A DNA stretch of 64,000 bases. It comes from Massilia sp. Leaf139 (lineage in GTDB: Bacteria; Pseudomonadota; Gammaproteobacteria; Burkholderiales; Burkholderiaceae_D). Below, piece by piece: positions 11,219 through 45,777 of this stretch; the stretch's first letter is position 1, and every line of letters starts with the position of its first letter. The stretch spans positions 771,194 to 835,193 of the forward strand of contig NZ_LMOJ01000001.1 in assembly GCF_001424165.1 (NCBI RefSeq). Reading direction: 5' to 3'. The position numbers and the translations under genes were made by a program. The notes under the pieces are model-generated. The model worked only from the letters and a program-made list of their open reading frames with translations. It searched no databases and was not told where the DNA came from.

Positions 11219-11247
11219 TTGCGCGAGACGAAGGCACCCCCTATAAT
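11219..11247 (+). promoter_or_regulatory. Sigma70-type promoter for tRNA-Val (and probably thrS)
   Basis: TTGCGC (11219-11224) and a perfect TATAAT (11242-11247) are separated by 17 bases, with the tRNA 5' end 11 bases after the -10 box. No other good promoter is evident between the tRNA and thrS. The same transcript therefore probably runs through the thrS leader. Confidence 0.8.
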
Positions 11248-11257
11248 GCACGTCATT

Positions 11258-11334
11258 GGGCGGTTAGTTCAGCTGGTTAGAATACTTGGTCGACATCCAA
11301 GGGGTCGCAGATTCGAATTCTGCACCGCCCACCA
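11258..11334 (+). tRNA. tRNA-Val(GAC), CCA encoded
   Basis: The cloverleaf folds fully. The acceptor stem GGGCGGT/ACCGCCC has 7 bp, there is a short D arm with GGTT in its loop, the anticodon stem is CTTGG/CCAAG with loop TCGACAT, and the T arm is GCAGA-TTCGAAT-TCTGC, ending with A and encoded CCA. Anticodon GAC reads valine GUC/GUU codons. Position 33, nearly always U, is C here. The leader of thrS begins directly downstream with no obvious terminator between, so the tRNA is probably released by processing of a longer transcript. Confidence 0.93.
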
Positions 11335-11371
11335 GAACATTTAAGTAAGAGCGAGAAAGGCACCTACGGTT

Positions 11372-11413
11372 ATGACACCGCGAACTACAACGAAGTTGTG
11401 GGGGAATCGCTAG
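11372..11413 (+). CDS. Putative thrS leader peptide, threonine-rich
   Basis: The 13-codon frame encodes MTPRTTTKLWGNR, ending at TAG. Four of the 13 residues are Thr (positions 2, 5, 6, 7), including three in a row read by different Thr codons (ACT, ACA, ACG). A GAGAAAGG purine stretch (11353-11360) lies 11 bases before the ATG, a slightly long but usable spacing. It precedes a terminator 38 bases later and then thrS. The match between the over-represented amino acid and the downstream synthetase is the main support for function. Confidence 0.6.
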   Translation: MTPRTTTKLWGNR

Positions 11414-11451
11414 ACGCGGTATGGTGTTCTTTTGCTCAACACACTGAAAAC

Positions 11452-11476
11452 AACGCGCCTAGTGCGCGTTTTTTTT
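11452..11476 (+). terminator. Rho-independent terminator in the thrS leader
   Basis: AACGCGC (11452-11458) and GCGCGTT (11464-11470) form a 7-bp stem with loop CTAGT, and the T-run continues to eight T's by 11476. It lies upstream of thrS, after the tRNA and leader peptide, so it is probably conditional. Confidence 0.85.
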
Positions 11477-11540
11477 CGTCCATTGAATTCAAGTTTCAAT
11501 ATTCTCAACATTAGCGGCGTCCGCGCCACAGGAGATCACT

Positions 11541-13451
11541 ATGCTTAACGTGCGACTTCCCGATGGCTCCAGCCGTCAGTTCGACGGCCCCGTGACGGTC
11601 GCCCAGGTGGCGACCAGCATCGCCCCCAGCCTGGCCAAGGCCGCGCTCGCCGGCAAGGTGAACGGCAAGGTGGTCGACACCTCCTTCCTGATCGAGTCCG
11701 ATGCCGATCTGGCCATCGTTACCGACAAGGATCCGGAAGGCCTGGACGTCATCCGCCACTCGACCGCCCACCTGTTGGCGCACGCGGTCAAGGAGCTGTT
11801 CCCGGACGCCCAGGTGACGATCGGGCCGGTCATCGAAAACGGTTTCTATTACGACTTCTCGTACAAGCGCCCCTTCACTCCGGACGACCTGGCGAAGATC
11901 GAAAAGAAGATGGCGGAACTGGCCAAGAAGGATGAGCCCGTCACCCGCAAGGTGCTGCCGCGCGACGAAGCGGTCGCCTATTTCAAATCGATCGGCGAAG
12001 AGTACAAGGCCGAGATCATCGCCTCGATCCCGGCCAACGAGGACGTGTCGCTGTATTCGGAAGGCAGCTTCACTGATCTGTGCCGCGGCCCGCACGTACC
12101 GTCCTCGGGCAAGCTGAAGGTCTTCAAGCTGATGAAACTGGCCGGCGCCTACTGGCGCGGCGACTCGAACAACGAGATGCTGCAGCGCGTCTACGGCACC
12201 GCCTGGGCCAAGAAGGAAGACCAGGAGCAATACCTGCACATGCTGGAAGAGGCGGAAAAGCGCGACCACCGCAAGCTCGGCAAGGCGCTCGATCTGTTCC
12301 ACTTCCAGGAAGAAGCGCCGGGCCTGATCTTCTGGCATCCGAAGGGCTGGACGATCTGGCAGCAGGTCGAGCAGTACATGCGCCATAAATACCAGGTCAA
12401 CGGCTACGACGAAGTCAAGGCGCCGCAGATCCTCGACGTGACCCTGTGGCAGAAGACCGGCCACTGGGACAACTACCGCGAGAACATGTTCACGACCGAG
12501 TCGGAGAACCGTTCTTACGCGCTCAAGCCGATGAACTGCCCGGGCCACGTGCAGATCTATAACTCGGGCATGAAGAGCTACCGCGACCTGCCGCTGCGCT
12601 ACGGCGAATTCGGCCAGTGCCACCGCAACGAATCGTCGGGTGCGCTGCACGGCATCATGCGCGTGCGCGGCTTCACCCAGGACGACGGCCACGTGTTCTG
12701 TACCGAAGAGCAGATCGAGTCCGAAGTCACCGCCTTCCATTCGCAGGCGATGCAGGTCTACGACGACTTCGGCTTCAACAACATCGACGTCAAGCTGGCC
12801 CTGCGTCCGGATAGCCGCATCGGTTCCGACGAGATCTGGGACGAAGCGGAAGAAGCGCTGCGCTCGGCCCTGCGCGCCTGTGGCGTGGAGTGGACGGAGC
12901 TGCCGGGCGAGGGCGCCTTCTACGGCCCGAAGATCGAGTACCACCTGAAGGACAGCCTGGGCCGTCCATGGCAGGTCGGCACGATGCAGGTCGACTTCTC
13001 GATGCCGGGACGCCTCGGCGCCGAGTATGTCGCGGAAGACAATACCCGCAAAGTACCGGTAATGCTGCACCGCGCGATCGTCGGCTCGATGGAGCGCTTC
13101 ATCGGCATCCTGATCGAGAACTATGCCGGCGCGCTGCCGCTTTGGCTCGCTCCAGTACAAGTGGCAGTGCTCAACATTTCGGACGCCCAGGCGAGCTATG
13201 TGAAAGAGGTGGAAGCCAAGCTGAAGAAGGCTGGCCTGCGTGTTCACGCTGATTTGCGGAACGAGAAGATTACCTATAAAATACGTGAACATTCCGTCCA
13301 AAAATTGCCATATATCTTAGTTGTTGGCGACAAGGAACGTGAAGCAAACACCGTGGCCGTGCGTGCGCGGGGCAATGTCGATCTGGGCGTGATGTCCGTC
13401 GATGCCCTGATCGAGCGCCTCGTGGGCGAAGTCGCTTCGAAAGCTAAATAA
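11541..13451 (+). CDS. thrS: Threonyl-tRNA synthetase
   Basis: The 636-aa class II synthetase charges tRNA-Thr. Domains in order are an N-terminal TGS domain (residues 1-60), an editing domain with [11 protein letters not shown] and the LCRGPHV metal/editing region, and the catalytic core with [11 protein letters not shown] (zinc Cys), motif 2 around [20 protein letters not shown] and motif 3 [17 protein letters not shown]. The C-terminal anticodon-binding domain ([12 protein letters not shown] onward) completes it. Length is close to the E. coli enzyme (642). AGGAG precedes the ATG by 6 bases. It heads thrS-infC-rpmI-rplT-pheS-pheT-ihfA and is preceded by a putative attenuator with Thr codons. 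Confidence 0.97.
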
Positions 13452-13502: not shown

Positions 13503-14024
13503 ATAGCTACTGACAAGTCGCATCGCATCAATGGCGAAATCACTTACCCGGAAATGCGTCTCTCCGGGGTGGACAACGAGCCGCTGGGCATTGTGAGCCT
13601 GGCTGAGGCATTTCGTCTGGCCGAGGAAAAGAACGTCGACCTCGTGGAAATCGCGCCGAACGCGGTTCCACCGGTCTGCCGCCTCATGGATTACGGCAAG
13701 TTCAAGTACTCGGAGCAGAAGAAGGCCCACGAAGCCAAGCTGAAGCAGAAGATCATCCAGGTCAAGGAAGTCAAATTCCGCCCGGGCACGGATGAAGGCG
13801 ACTACAGCATCAAGCTGCGTAACCTCATCAAGTTCCTGGAAGAAGGCGACAAGACCAAGATCACGCTGCGCTTCCGCGGTCGCGAAATGGCGCACCAGGA
13901 CATCGGCTTCCGCATGCTCGAACGTCTGAAGGGTGATCTGGAGCCATTCGGCCAGGTCGAGCAGTTCCCGAAGATGGAAGGCCGCCAGATGATCATGATC
14001 ATTGCTCCGAAAAAGAAGAAGTAA
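13503..14024 (+). CDS. infC: Translation initiation factor IF-3, probable ATA start
   Basis: IF-3 binds the 30S subunit, prevents premature subunit joining and rejects non-standard start codons. From ATA 13503 the product is 173 aa: (M)[19 protein letters not shown] onward, with the N-domain [10 protein letters not shown] and the C-domain motif [19 protein letters not shown]. The first ATG in frame (13554) would cut away the conserved SHRINGEI segment. An AGGA (13493-13496) sits 6 bases ahead of the ATA. E. coli infC uses ATT, through which IF-3 represses itself, so ATA here implies the same autoregulation. It follows thrS by 51 bases. Confidence 0.93.
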
Positions 14025-15010: not shown

Positions 15011-15043
15011 CGGGGCATCGGTTCAGACCTATGCCCCGTTTTT
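15011..15043 (+). terminator. Rho-independent terminator between rplT and pheS
   Basis: CGGGGCAT (15011-15018) pairs with ATGCCCCG (15031-15038), followed by TTTTT. It separates the ribosomal protein genes from pheST. I found no Phe-rich leader frame ahead of it, so it is probably a simple or partial terminator rather than an amino-acid attenuator. Confidence 0.8.
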
Positions 15044-45498: not shown

Positions 45499-45569
45499 GG
45501 AATCCTCAGGGCAGAAAGGGCAGTGAATAAGGGAGCCGCCACGCCGGCGAATGCCTGCGTGCGCTGCGC

Positions 45570-45768
45570 GCCCCTCTGTCCTTGGTACCTGAGAGATAGC
45601 AGCCCTGTGTGGCCGCCTGCCCCTTCGGTGGGCCCGGGCGATTACCGGGGCCGCTCTCCAGAGTTGATCCTGCACGCCGTGCGCGCCGACCCCTGACCGG
45701 TCCTTTTGCCTGAGAGTTTTTGGGTGATGCCCCTTCGGCGGCCACGCGTAGCGGCGCTCTCCCGGTCA
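45570..45768 (-). promoter_or_regulatory. Tandem glycine riboswitch upstream of gcvT
   Basis: On the minus strand two consecutive aptamers can be read. The first (about 45768-45690) has GGGAGAG, GGGGCATCACCC, the conserved CTCTCAGGCAAAAGGACC 3' part and a closing stem. The second (about 45665-45570) opens CTGGAGAG and ends CTCTCAGGTACCAAGGACAG. The two are joined by a short linker, the classic cooperative tandem arrangement, and glycine binding is expected to raise gcvT expression. The distance to gcvT is about 70 bases. Confidence 0.95.
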
Positions 45769-45777
45769 AGACTGTGG

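Follow-up and report, generated by a model that had tools for sequence, protein, structure and literature searches.

In the E. coli attenuators of the pheST operon, with its pheM leader, and of the his, trp and thr operons, a short leader frame with codons for the cognate amino acid is combined with competing 1:2, 2:3 and 3:4 pairings and an intrinsic terminator. Expression of E. coli thrS is a model case of another mode, synthetase-mRNA regulation, in which ThrS binds tRNA-like hairpins of its own mRNA and blocks translation, and in Gram-positive bacteria the T-box leaders of synthetase genes respond to tRNA charging by controlling a terminator. In the literature, pheST attenuation is named for gamma-proteobacteria and leader-peptide attenuators are given as known or proposed for the synthetase genes pheST, trpS and leuS (PMC1262725), E. 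coli threonyl-tRNA synthetase is named as self-regulating (PMC2965389), and leader attenuation is proposed for alaS, trpS, leuS and thrS of Streptomyces lividans (PMC8079986).

Here we analyzed the thrS leader in a 64,000-nt stretch of DNA from Massilia sp. Leaf139 (the window) and in its relatives. Comparative tests and folding models make it very probable that this leader acts as a ribosome-mediated transcription attenuator sensing the charging of tRNA-Thr. It resembles the pheST, his, trp and thr attenuators in its short cognate-codon leader, competing pairings and intrinsic terminator, and pheST also in that an aminoacyl-tRNA synthetase operon is concerned. It differs from them in that the betaproteobacterial leader would sense threonine and precedes thrS, often behind a tRNA-Val gene, and in that the regulatory codons come almost directly after the start, segment 1 being largely the leader's own Shine-Dalgarno (SD)/start region. 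The E. coli thrS operator likewise places the control of thrS in the 5' leader, but there the ThrS protein blocks translation, whereas here a leader peptide and a transcription terminator would be used; T-box leaders differ in binding tRNA directly, without translation.

The preliminary description of this locus knew of no account of such a leader for thrS. A proposal does exist, with another architecture: S. lividans thrL is likewise a short Thr-codon frame proposed to attenuate thrS, but it encodes the peptide MKRVRPFLETTPGFVPAR with two Thr, on a leaderless transcript and with no clear Rho-independent terminator (PMC8079986). By eye, its peptide has no likeness to the leaders described here. 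Our search of the open literature found no recognised description of a betaproteobacterial thrS leader-peptide attenuator; Lopatovskaya 2010 (Mol Biol 44:128) and Vitreschak 2004 may predict one, the title of the former reportedly covering aminoacyl-tRNA operons.

Results

A threonine-codon frame and an intrinsic terminator precede thrS

The region upstream of thrS, and one site further downstream, contain the following features:

11219..11247, plus strand: promoter-like TTGCGC-N17-TATAAT before tRNA-Val, found by reading; the likely start of a tRNA-Val/leader transcript
11258..11334, plus strand: tRNA-Val(GAC), from the tRNA scan; presumably co-transcribed with the leader
11349..11364, plus strand: segment 1, the leader Shine-Dalgarno and spacer (GAGCGAGAAAGGCACC), predicted partner of segment 2 from the MFE fold and the 1:2 tests on relatives
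11353-11360, plus strand: SD-like GAGAAAGG of the leader frame, found by reading
11372..11413, plus strand: leader frame of 13 codons, peptide MTPRTTTKLWGNR, Thr at codons 2, 5, 6 and 7; ATG at 11372, stop TAG at 11411-11413
11408..11437, plus strand: segment 2, the stop-codon and post-stop region (CGCUAGACGCGGUAUGGUGUUCUUUUGCUC), from folds and pairing tests
11446..11463, plus strand: segment 3, an A-rich stretch with the terminator 5' arm and loop, predicted antiterminator partner of segment 2 from the duplex test
11452..11476, plus strand: intrinsic terminator (3:4) with a 7-bp stem, 5-nt loop and 8-T tract, from the terminator scan
11541..13451, plus strand: thrS, threonyl-tRNA synthetase, the putatively regulated gene, ATG at 11541; from the ORF and Pfam
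15011-15043: terminator-like hairpin CGGGGCAT-N12-ATGCCCCG-T5 in the rplT-pheS gap, found by reading; the terminator scan does not accept a loop of this length

The leader frame reads ATG ACA CCG CGA ACT ACA ACG AAG TTG TGG GGG AAT CGC TAG (11372-11413) with the putative ribosome-binding site AAAGG before its ATG, and the terminator is AACGCGC-CUAGU-GCGCGUU (11452-11470) with its T run at 11469-11476. Reading of the window together with the terminator scan thus confirmed the order given in the preliminary description, a 13-codon Thr frame, then a terminator, then thrS, which is the only full-length thrS match in the genome. A strict promoter scan returned no promoter. At -44.7 kcal/mol, the predicted fold of the 146-nt stretch 11335-11480 is more stable than the average of 200 shuffles (-36.2 +/- 3.4; z -2.55). 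Two pairings had been put forward earlier for this stretch. The first, ACCGCG (11377-11382) with CGCGGT (11415-11420), is exact. For the second, GTTCTTTT (11426-11433) with AAAACAAC (11447-11454), seven of the eight pairs form and one position is a C-C mismatch; as the sole antiterminator it gives way to a better candidate, in which the 5' arm and loop of the terminator are the partners of the post-stop segment (GCUAG:CUAGU and CGCG:CGCG in the window).

No Rfam leader family (Thr_leader, Trp_leader, Leu_leader and others) matched at gathering score in the window and 11 loci, and with relaxed thresholds the window and locus L024 yielded none that fits the leader, the window's Trp_leader (18.2 bits) and Leu_leader (17.5 bits) scores lying below threshold. 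The T-box covariance model had no match in the stretches scanned (the window, 11 loci and L024). A minus-strand Bp1_162 match in the window was rejected, as it scored 23 bits against a gathering score of 50 and was absent from the Burkholderia locus L024.

Distribution of the leader among relatives

Two samples were compared with the window. The first consists of 80 named thrS loci, the best 80 of 582 from a scan of genome contigs, so that it is biased to close relatives. In the window's family, 116 genomes were searched and thrS was found in 112; the pattern GAAAGGC, 0-12 nt, GGTTATGACACCGCGAAC occurred in 76 of the 116, in a single copy each, and the reversed control pattern had 0 matches. 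From the family genomes with thrS, 80 upstream stretches were taken (45 of the 76 with the pattern and 35 of the 36 without it). A leader was called by a rule requiring a start codon, 2-6 codons, CGN-ACN (the Arg-Thr anchor) and a stop, the frame with most Thr being chosen. By this rule 105 of 161 thrS upstream regions have a leader: 39/80 named loci, 65/80 family stretches (on recount, 21/35 pattern-negative and 44/45 pattern-positive) and the window. An SD-like AAAGG, AAGG or GGAG precedes the frame in many of the 105, and an intrinsic terminator lies between leader and thrS in 104 of them. Conservation of the leader frame, its Thr codons and the terminator in relatives, the first check suggested for this locus, is therefore borne out.

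Named carriers include Massilia, Duganella, Janthinobacterium, Noviherbaspirillum, Cupriavidus, Ralstonia, Paraburkholderia, Caballeronia, Burkholderia, Roseateles, Piscinibacter, Acidovorax, Comamonas, Rhodoferax, Azoarcus, Aquitalea and Vogesella. The rule found no leader in 56 of the 161 regions, among them those of Polynucleobacter, Limnohabitans, Malikia, Methylophilaceae, Gallionella, one Alcaligenaceae genome, five genomes of genus g7 and four of genus g13. A Polaromonas locus (L051) has ATA where the start codon is expected, and its Thr run is absent. The rule also misses five loci (L010, L034, L036, L114 and L129) with Thr-bearing frames in the same place, which were left out of the counts, and one stretch (L118) has 105 nt upstream only, too short to judge. 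Across the order, TTATGNCACCGCGAAC occurred in 45 of 399 genomes and its reversed control in 4, a count of matches irrespective of a neighbouring thrS, from a pattern that misses variants.

Several individual loci stand out. In L097, from the window's own family, the leader between GAGAAAG and the terminator is apparently deleted, with tRNA-Val and terminator kept. In L129 the leader frame overruns the usual stop, crosses the CUAG element and has its end just ahead of the terminator. Two Lysobacterales thrS loci, L054 (MSTTSSQR) and L071 (MATTRFHC), have other short frames with a Thr pair before a hairpin and possibly represent an independent Thr leader of that order; one DNA pattern for this type, which may be too narrow, gave 0 matches in 274 genomes of the class.

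Threonine codons are enriched in the reading frame

The anchor Thr is ascertained by the rule and was therefore excluded from the Thr test; picking the Thr-richest frame gives Thr a slight advantage. After the anchor, Thr codons (ACN) made up 159/642 codons in frame, compared to 11/560 and 43/560 in the other frames, and 1000 shuffles gave 52 +/- 6.7 with a maximum of 75. Among 82 distinct leader peptides, Thr accounted for 230 of 813 codons, anchor excluded. The third base of Thr varies synonymously at the two codons following the anchor, the first of these being ACC in 21, ACA in 15, ACG in 13 and ACT in 5 leaders. Some leaders are Thr-poor, e.g. MTPRTSRQLFM. The confinement of the enrichment to the reading frame indicates that the leader peptide is selected as threonine.

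Competing stems are matched within lineages

In leader folds, the post-stop segment has two alternative partners, the SD/start region (1:2) and the 5' arm and loop of the terminator (2:3). When segment 2 was shuffled by dinucleotides, the 2:3 duplex had a mean z of -1.85 over 95 distinct leaders, with 48/95 at p<=0.05 and 47/95 falling short of it; for 1:2 the mean z was -1.64, with 41/94 leaders at p<=0.05 and 53/94 short of it. Two Cupriavidus leaders (L013, L023) had a positive z for 2:3. The window's own 2:3 duplex is weak by this test (dG -14.1 compared to a shuffled mean of -9.8, z -1.73, p 0.075).

The Massilia/Duganella-type cluster was aligned with 42 of its 43 members (L128, with a long insert, was excluded), and since the pairing elements are nearly invariant there, covariation was tested between lineages and not inside the cluster. 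Segments were exchanged between representatives of 41 lineage clusters, and the stability of matched and mismatched combinations was compared. Matched 2:3 duplexes were more stable than mismatched ones (-16.0 vs -14.1 kcal/mol; z -4.97, p 0.0002), as were matched 1:2 duplexes (-23.8 vs -21.1 kcal/mol; z -4.93, p 0.0002), while the control pairing 1:3 gave z +0.45 and p 0.67. The 2:3 pairing is CUAGUCG:CGGCUAG or CUAGUCG:CGGCUGG in the Massilia/Duganella-type cluster, UCGAGG:CCUCGA in Paraburkholderia, CAAGG:CCUUG in Ralstonia vs CGAGG:CCUUG in Cupriavidus, GUUCGCGC or GUCCGCGC with GCGCGGAC in Acidovorax and Rhodoferax, and CUGAGCC:GGCUCAG in Aquitalea. Two genomes of one genus (L101, L106) have CAGCCGC:GCGGCUG vs CAACCGC:GCGGUUG. 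The compensatory changes looked for in the stems are thus present as lineage-specific complementarity of both 1:2 and 2:3. For the group, these comparisons support 1:2 and 2:3 as mutually exclusive pairings, with the p value given above for the window's antiterminator taken alone.

Modelled switching by ribosome position

The pairing states were modelled with a ribosome mask of ~32 nt and the terminator 3' arm absent, the readout being how large a share of the terminator 5' arm is paired to segment 2. This share was 0.568 with a Thr codon in the A site, 0.247 without a ribosome and 0.149 with the ribosome at the stop codon, where the drop follows in part from the masking of segment 2 itself. 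It was higher at Thr than at stop in 89/94 leaders and higher at Thr than without a ribosome in 87/94. The Thr-none contrast was 0.337 in real leaders and 0.109 with shuffled segment 2 (p 9e-8), and the Thr-stop contrast 0.435 and 0.197, respectively (p 4e-9). Stalled occupancy itself was not above that of shuffled segment 2 in two comparisons (0.584 vs 0.546, p 0.16; 0.584 vs 0.558, p 0.38), and because real and shuffled values are nearly equal, we do not count the absolute level of stalled antiterminator occupancy as evidence. Shuffling instead lifts the other states, from 0.247 to 0.448 without a ribosome and from 0.149 to 0.360 at stop, and with the stalled share unchanged the contrasts shrink. 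The model thus indicates that what is specific to the real sequences is that the antiterminator is kept off in the ribosome-free and stop states.

The window itself had a modelled share of 0.34 at Thr codon 2, 0.27 at codon 5, 0.10 at codon 6, 0.04 at codon 7, 0 without a ribosome and 0.01 at stop; the direction is right and the switching weak. Among the full-length folds listed, the terminator was present in every ribosome state except in the ribosome-free fold of one leader (L084), and a switch would therefore have to be kinetic.

tRNA-Val, the terminator and alternative explanations

The presence of a tRNA and of a terminator was tallied in the 156 regions for which 250 nt or more (up to about 460 nt) upstream of thrS were examined. 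The 102 leader regions comprised 60 with tRNA-Val and terminator, 41 with a terminator and no tRNA in the examined sequence, and one with neither; the 54 leaderless regions comprised 15 with tRNA and terminator, 18 with terminator only, 6 with tRNA only and 15 with neither. These counts bear on the explanation that the terminator merely ends the tRNA-Val transcript, the short frame being fortuitous and thrS having a separate promoter. It would account for the tRNA-Val upstream in 60/102 leader loci, for the 15 loci that have tRNA and terminator with no leader by the rule, and for locus L083, where the terminator immediately follows the tRNA. However, the 41 leader loci with a terminator and no upstream tRNA argue that the terminator is not merely that of the tRNA, and neither the selection of Thr codons in frame nor the lineage-matched 1:2 and 2:3 complementarity would be expected, so that we consider this explanation very improbable.

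Still less probable is an operator of the E. coli type, in which ThrS would bind a tRNA-like structure before the thrS start and autoregulate translation, with the leader secondary; both controls could coexist. Where terminator and thrS are 35 nt or more apart, a hairpin abuts the thrS SD in 43/82 leader loci, but by the same simple rule it is missing in the other 39, the hairpins among the 40 loci listed differ in their loops, and the Thr-coded frame and the terminator would be left unexplained. The window's case among the 43 is a GC-rich hairpin, GCGG-CGU-CCGC, at 11514-11524 close to the thrS SD; its sequence varies between loci.

Least credible of the three is that the conserved GGTTATGACACCGCGAAC block is a nucleotide element (a site for a protein or an sRNA, or a hairpin at the start codon) with the peptide incidental: from GGTT to CGAAC, 89 distinct sequences are 88-100% identical, third codon bases included (the anchor CG and AC being fixed by the search rule), and GGTYATGNYACC occurs in 74/89, but the two codons after the anchor keep Thr at the codon level and not at the base level, and leaders without the block keep Thr runs (Azoarcus MIFRTTTEAGN, Vogesella MFKRTTTTRISR, L084 MMRAFRTTTTTLLG). 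In the window, the block lies at 11368-11385; it is conserved base by base, the CCG and CGA codons included. A possible GGU-UAUGAC-ACC hairpin, whose loop would contain the start codon, is shared by 74/89.

Reach of control downstream of thrS

The genes after thrS in the window are, by Pfam, infC, rplT, pheS, pheT and an IHF/HU-type gene; an rpmI-like frame was read in addition, and 360 nt separate infC from it. The preliminary description had extended the attenuation from thrS to infC, rplT, pheST and ihfA. Attenuation of thrS itself is upheld by the comparative sequence tests. The extension is not: given the 360-nt infC-rpmI gap and the terminator-like hairpin between rplT and pheS, threonine attenuation of pheST and ihfA is unsupported. 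A by-eye search of the window sequence for a pheM-like Phe leader before pheS found none.

Two further observations were made in the window. On the minus strand, tandem glycine riboswitch aptamers (Rfam) lie at 45566-45774. At 13503-13556, infC apparently starts at ATA (ATA GCT ACT GAC AAG TCG CAT CGC ATC AAT GGC, in the frame of the IF3 domain) rather than at ATG 13554, which is reminiscent of the AUU start that E. coli uses for autoregulation (PMC5559785).

Discussion

By comparison, the thrS leader has the sequence-testable features of a known kind of element, the ribosome-mediated transcription attenuator, and we class it as one on these features. In the mechanism that we propose for it, RNA polymerase would transcribe tRNA-Val and the leader, and a ribosome starting on the MTPRTTT frame would open the 1:2 stem, a pairing that the comparison supports. 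When Thr-tRNA-Thr is scarce, the model has the ribosome stall on the early Thr codons, where it would cover segment 1 and leave segment 2 free to pair with the 5' arm and loop of the terminator; no terminator would form and thrS would be transcribed. With good charging, the ribosome is predicted to reach the stop codon, inside or just before segment 2, and to cover that segment, and the terminator would form. Without translation the 1:2 stem would form, making termination the modelled default.

A broader reading, to which we give an even chance, is that thrS of betaproteobacteria (Burkholderiales, Neisseriales, Rhodocyclales) was ancestrally controlled by a Thr-leader attenuator, often fused behind tRNA-Val, instead of by the synthetase-binding operator of E. 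coli. Such an attenuator would be self-closing: with segment 1 being the leader's own ribosome-binding/start region, an untranslated leader would terminate and also close its own entry. The GGTTATGACACCGCGAAC block would add a second function at the base level.

The data indicate that many betaproteobacteria would regulate thrS by ribosome-mediated attenuation, unlike E. coli, and that lineages reach the same competing stems by different sequences. As an RNA element the leader found no match in Rfam 15, and it points to a short conserved peptide gene that annotation is likely to miss. The timing and manner in which proteobacteria exchange one control mechanism of a gene for another thereby become directly testable.
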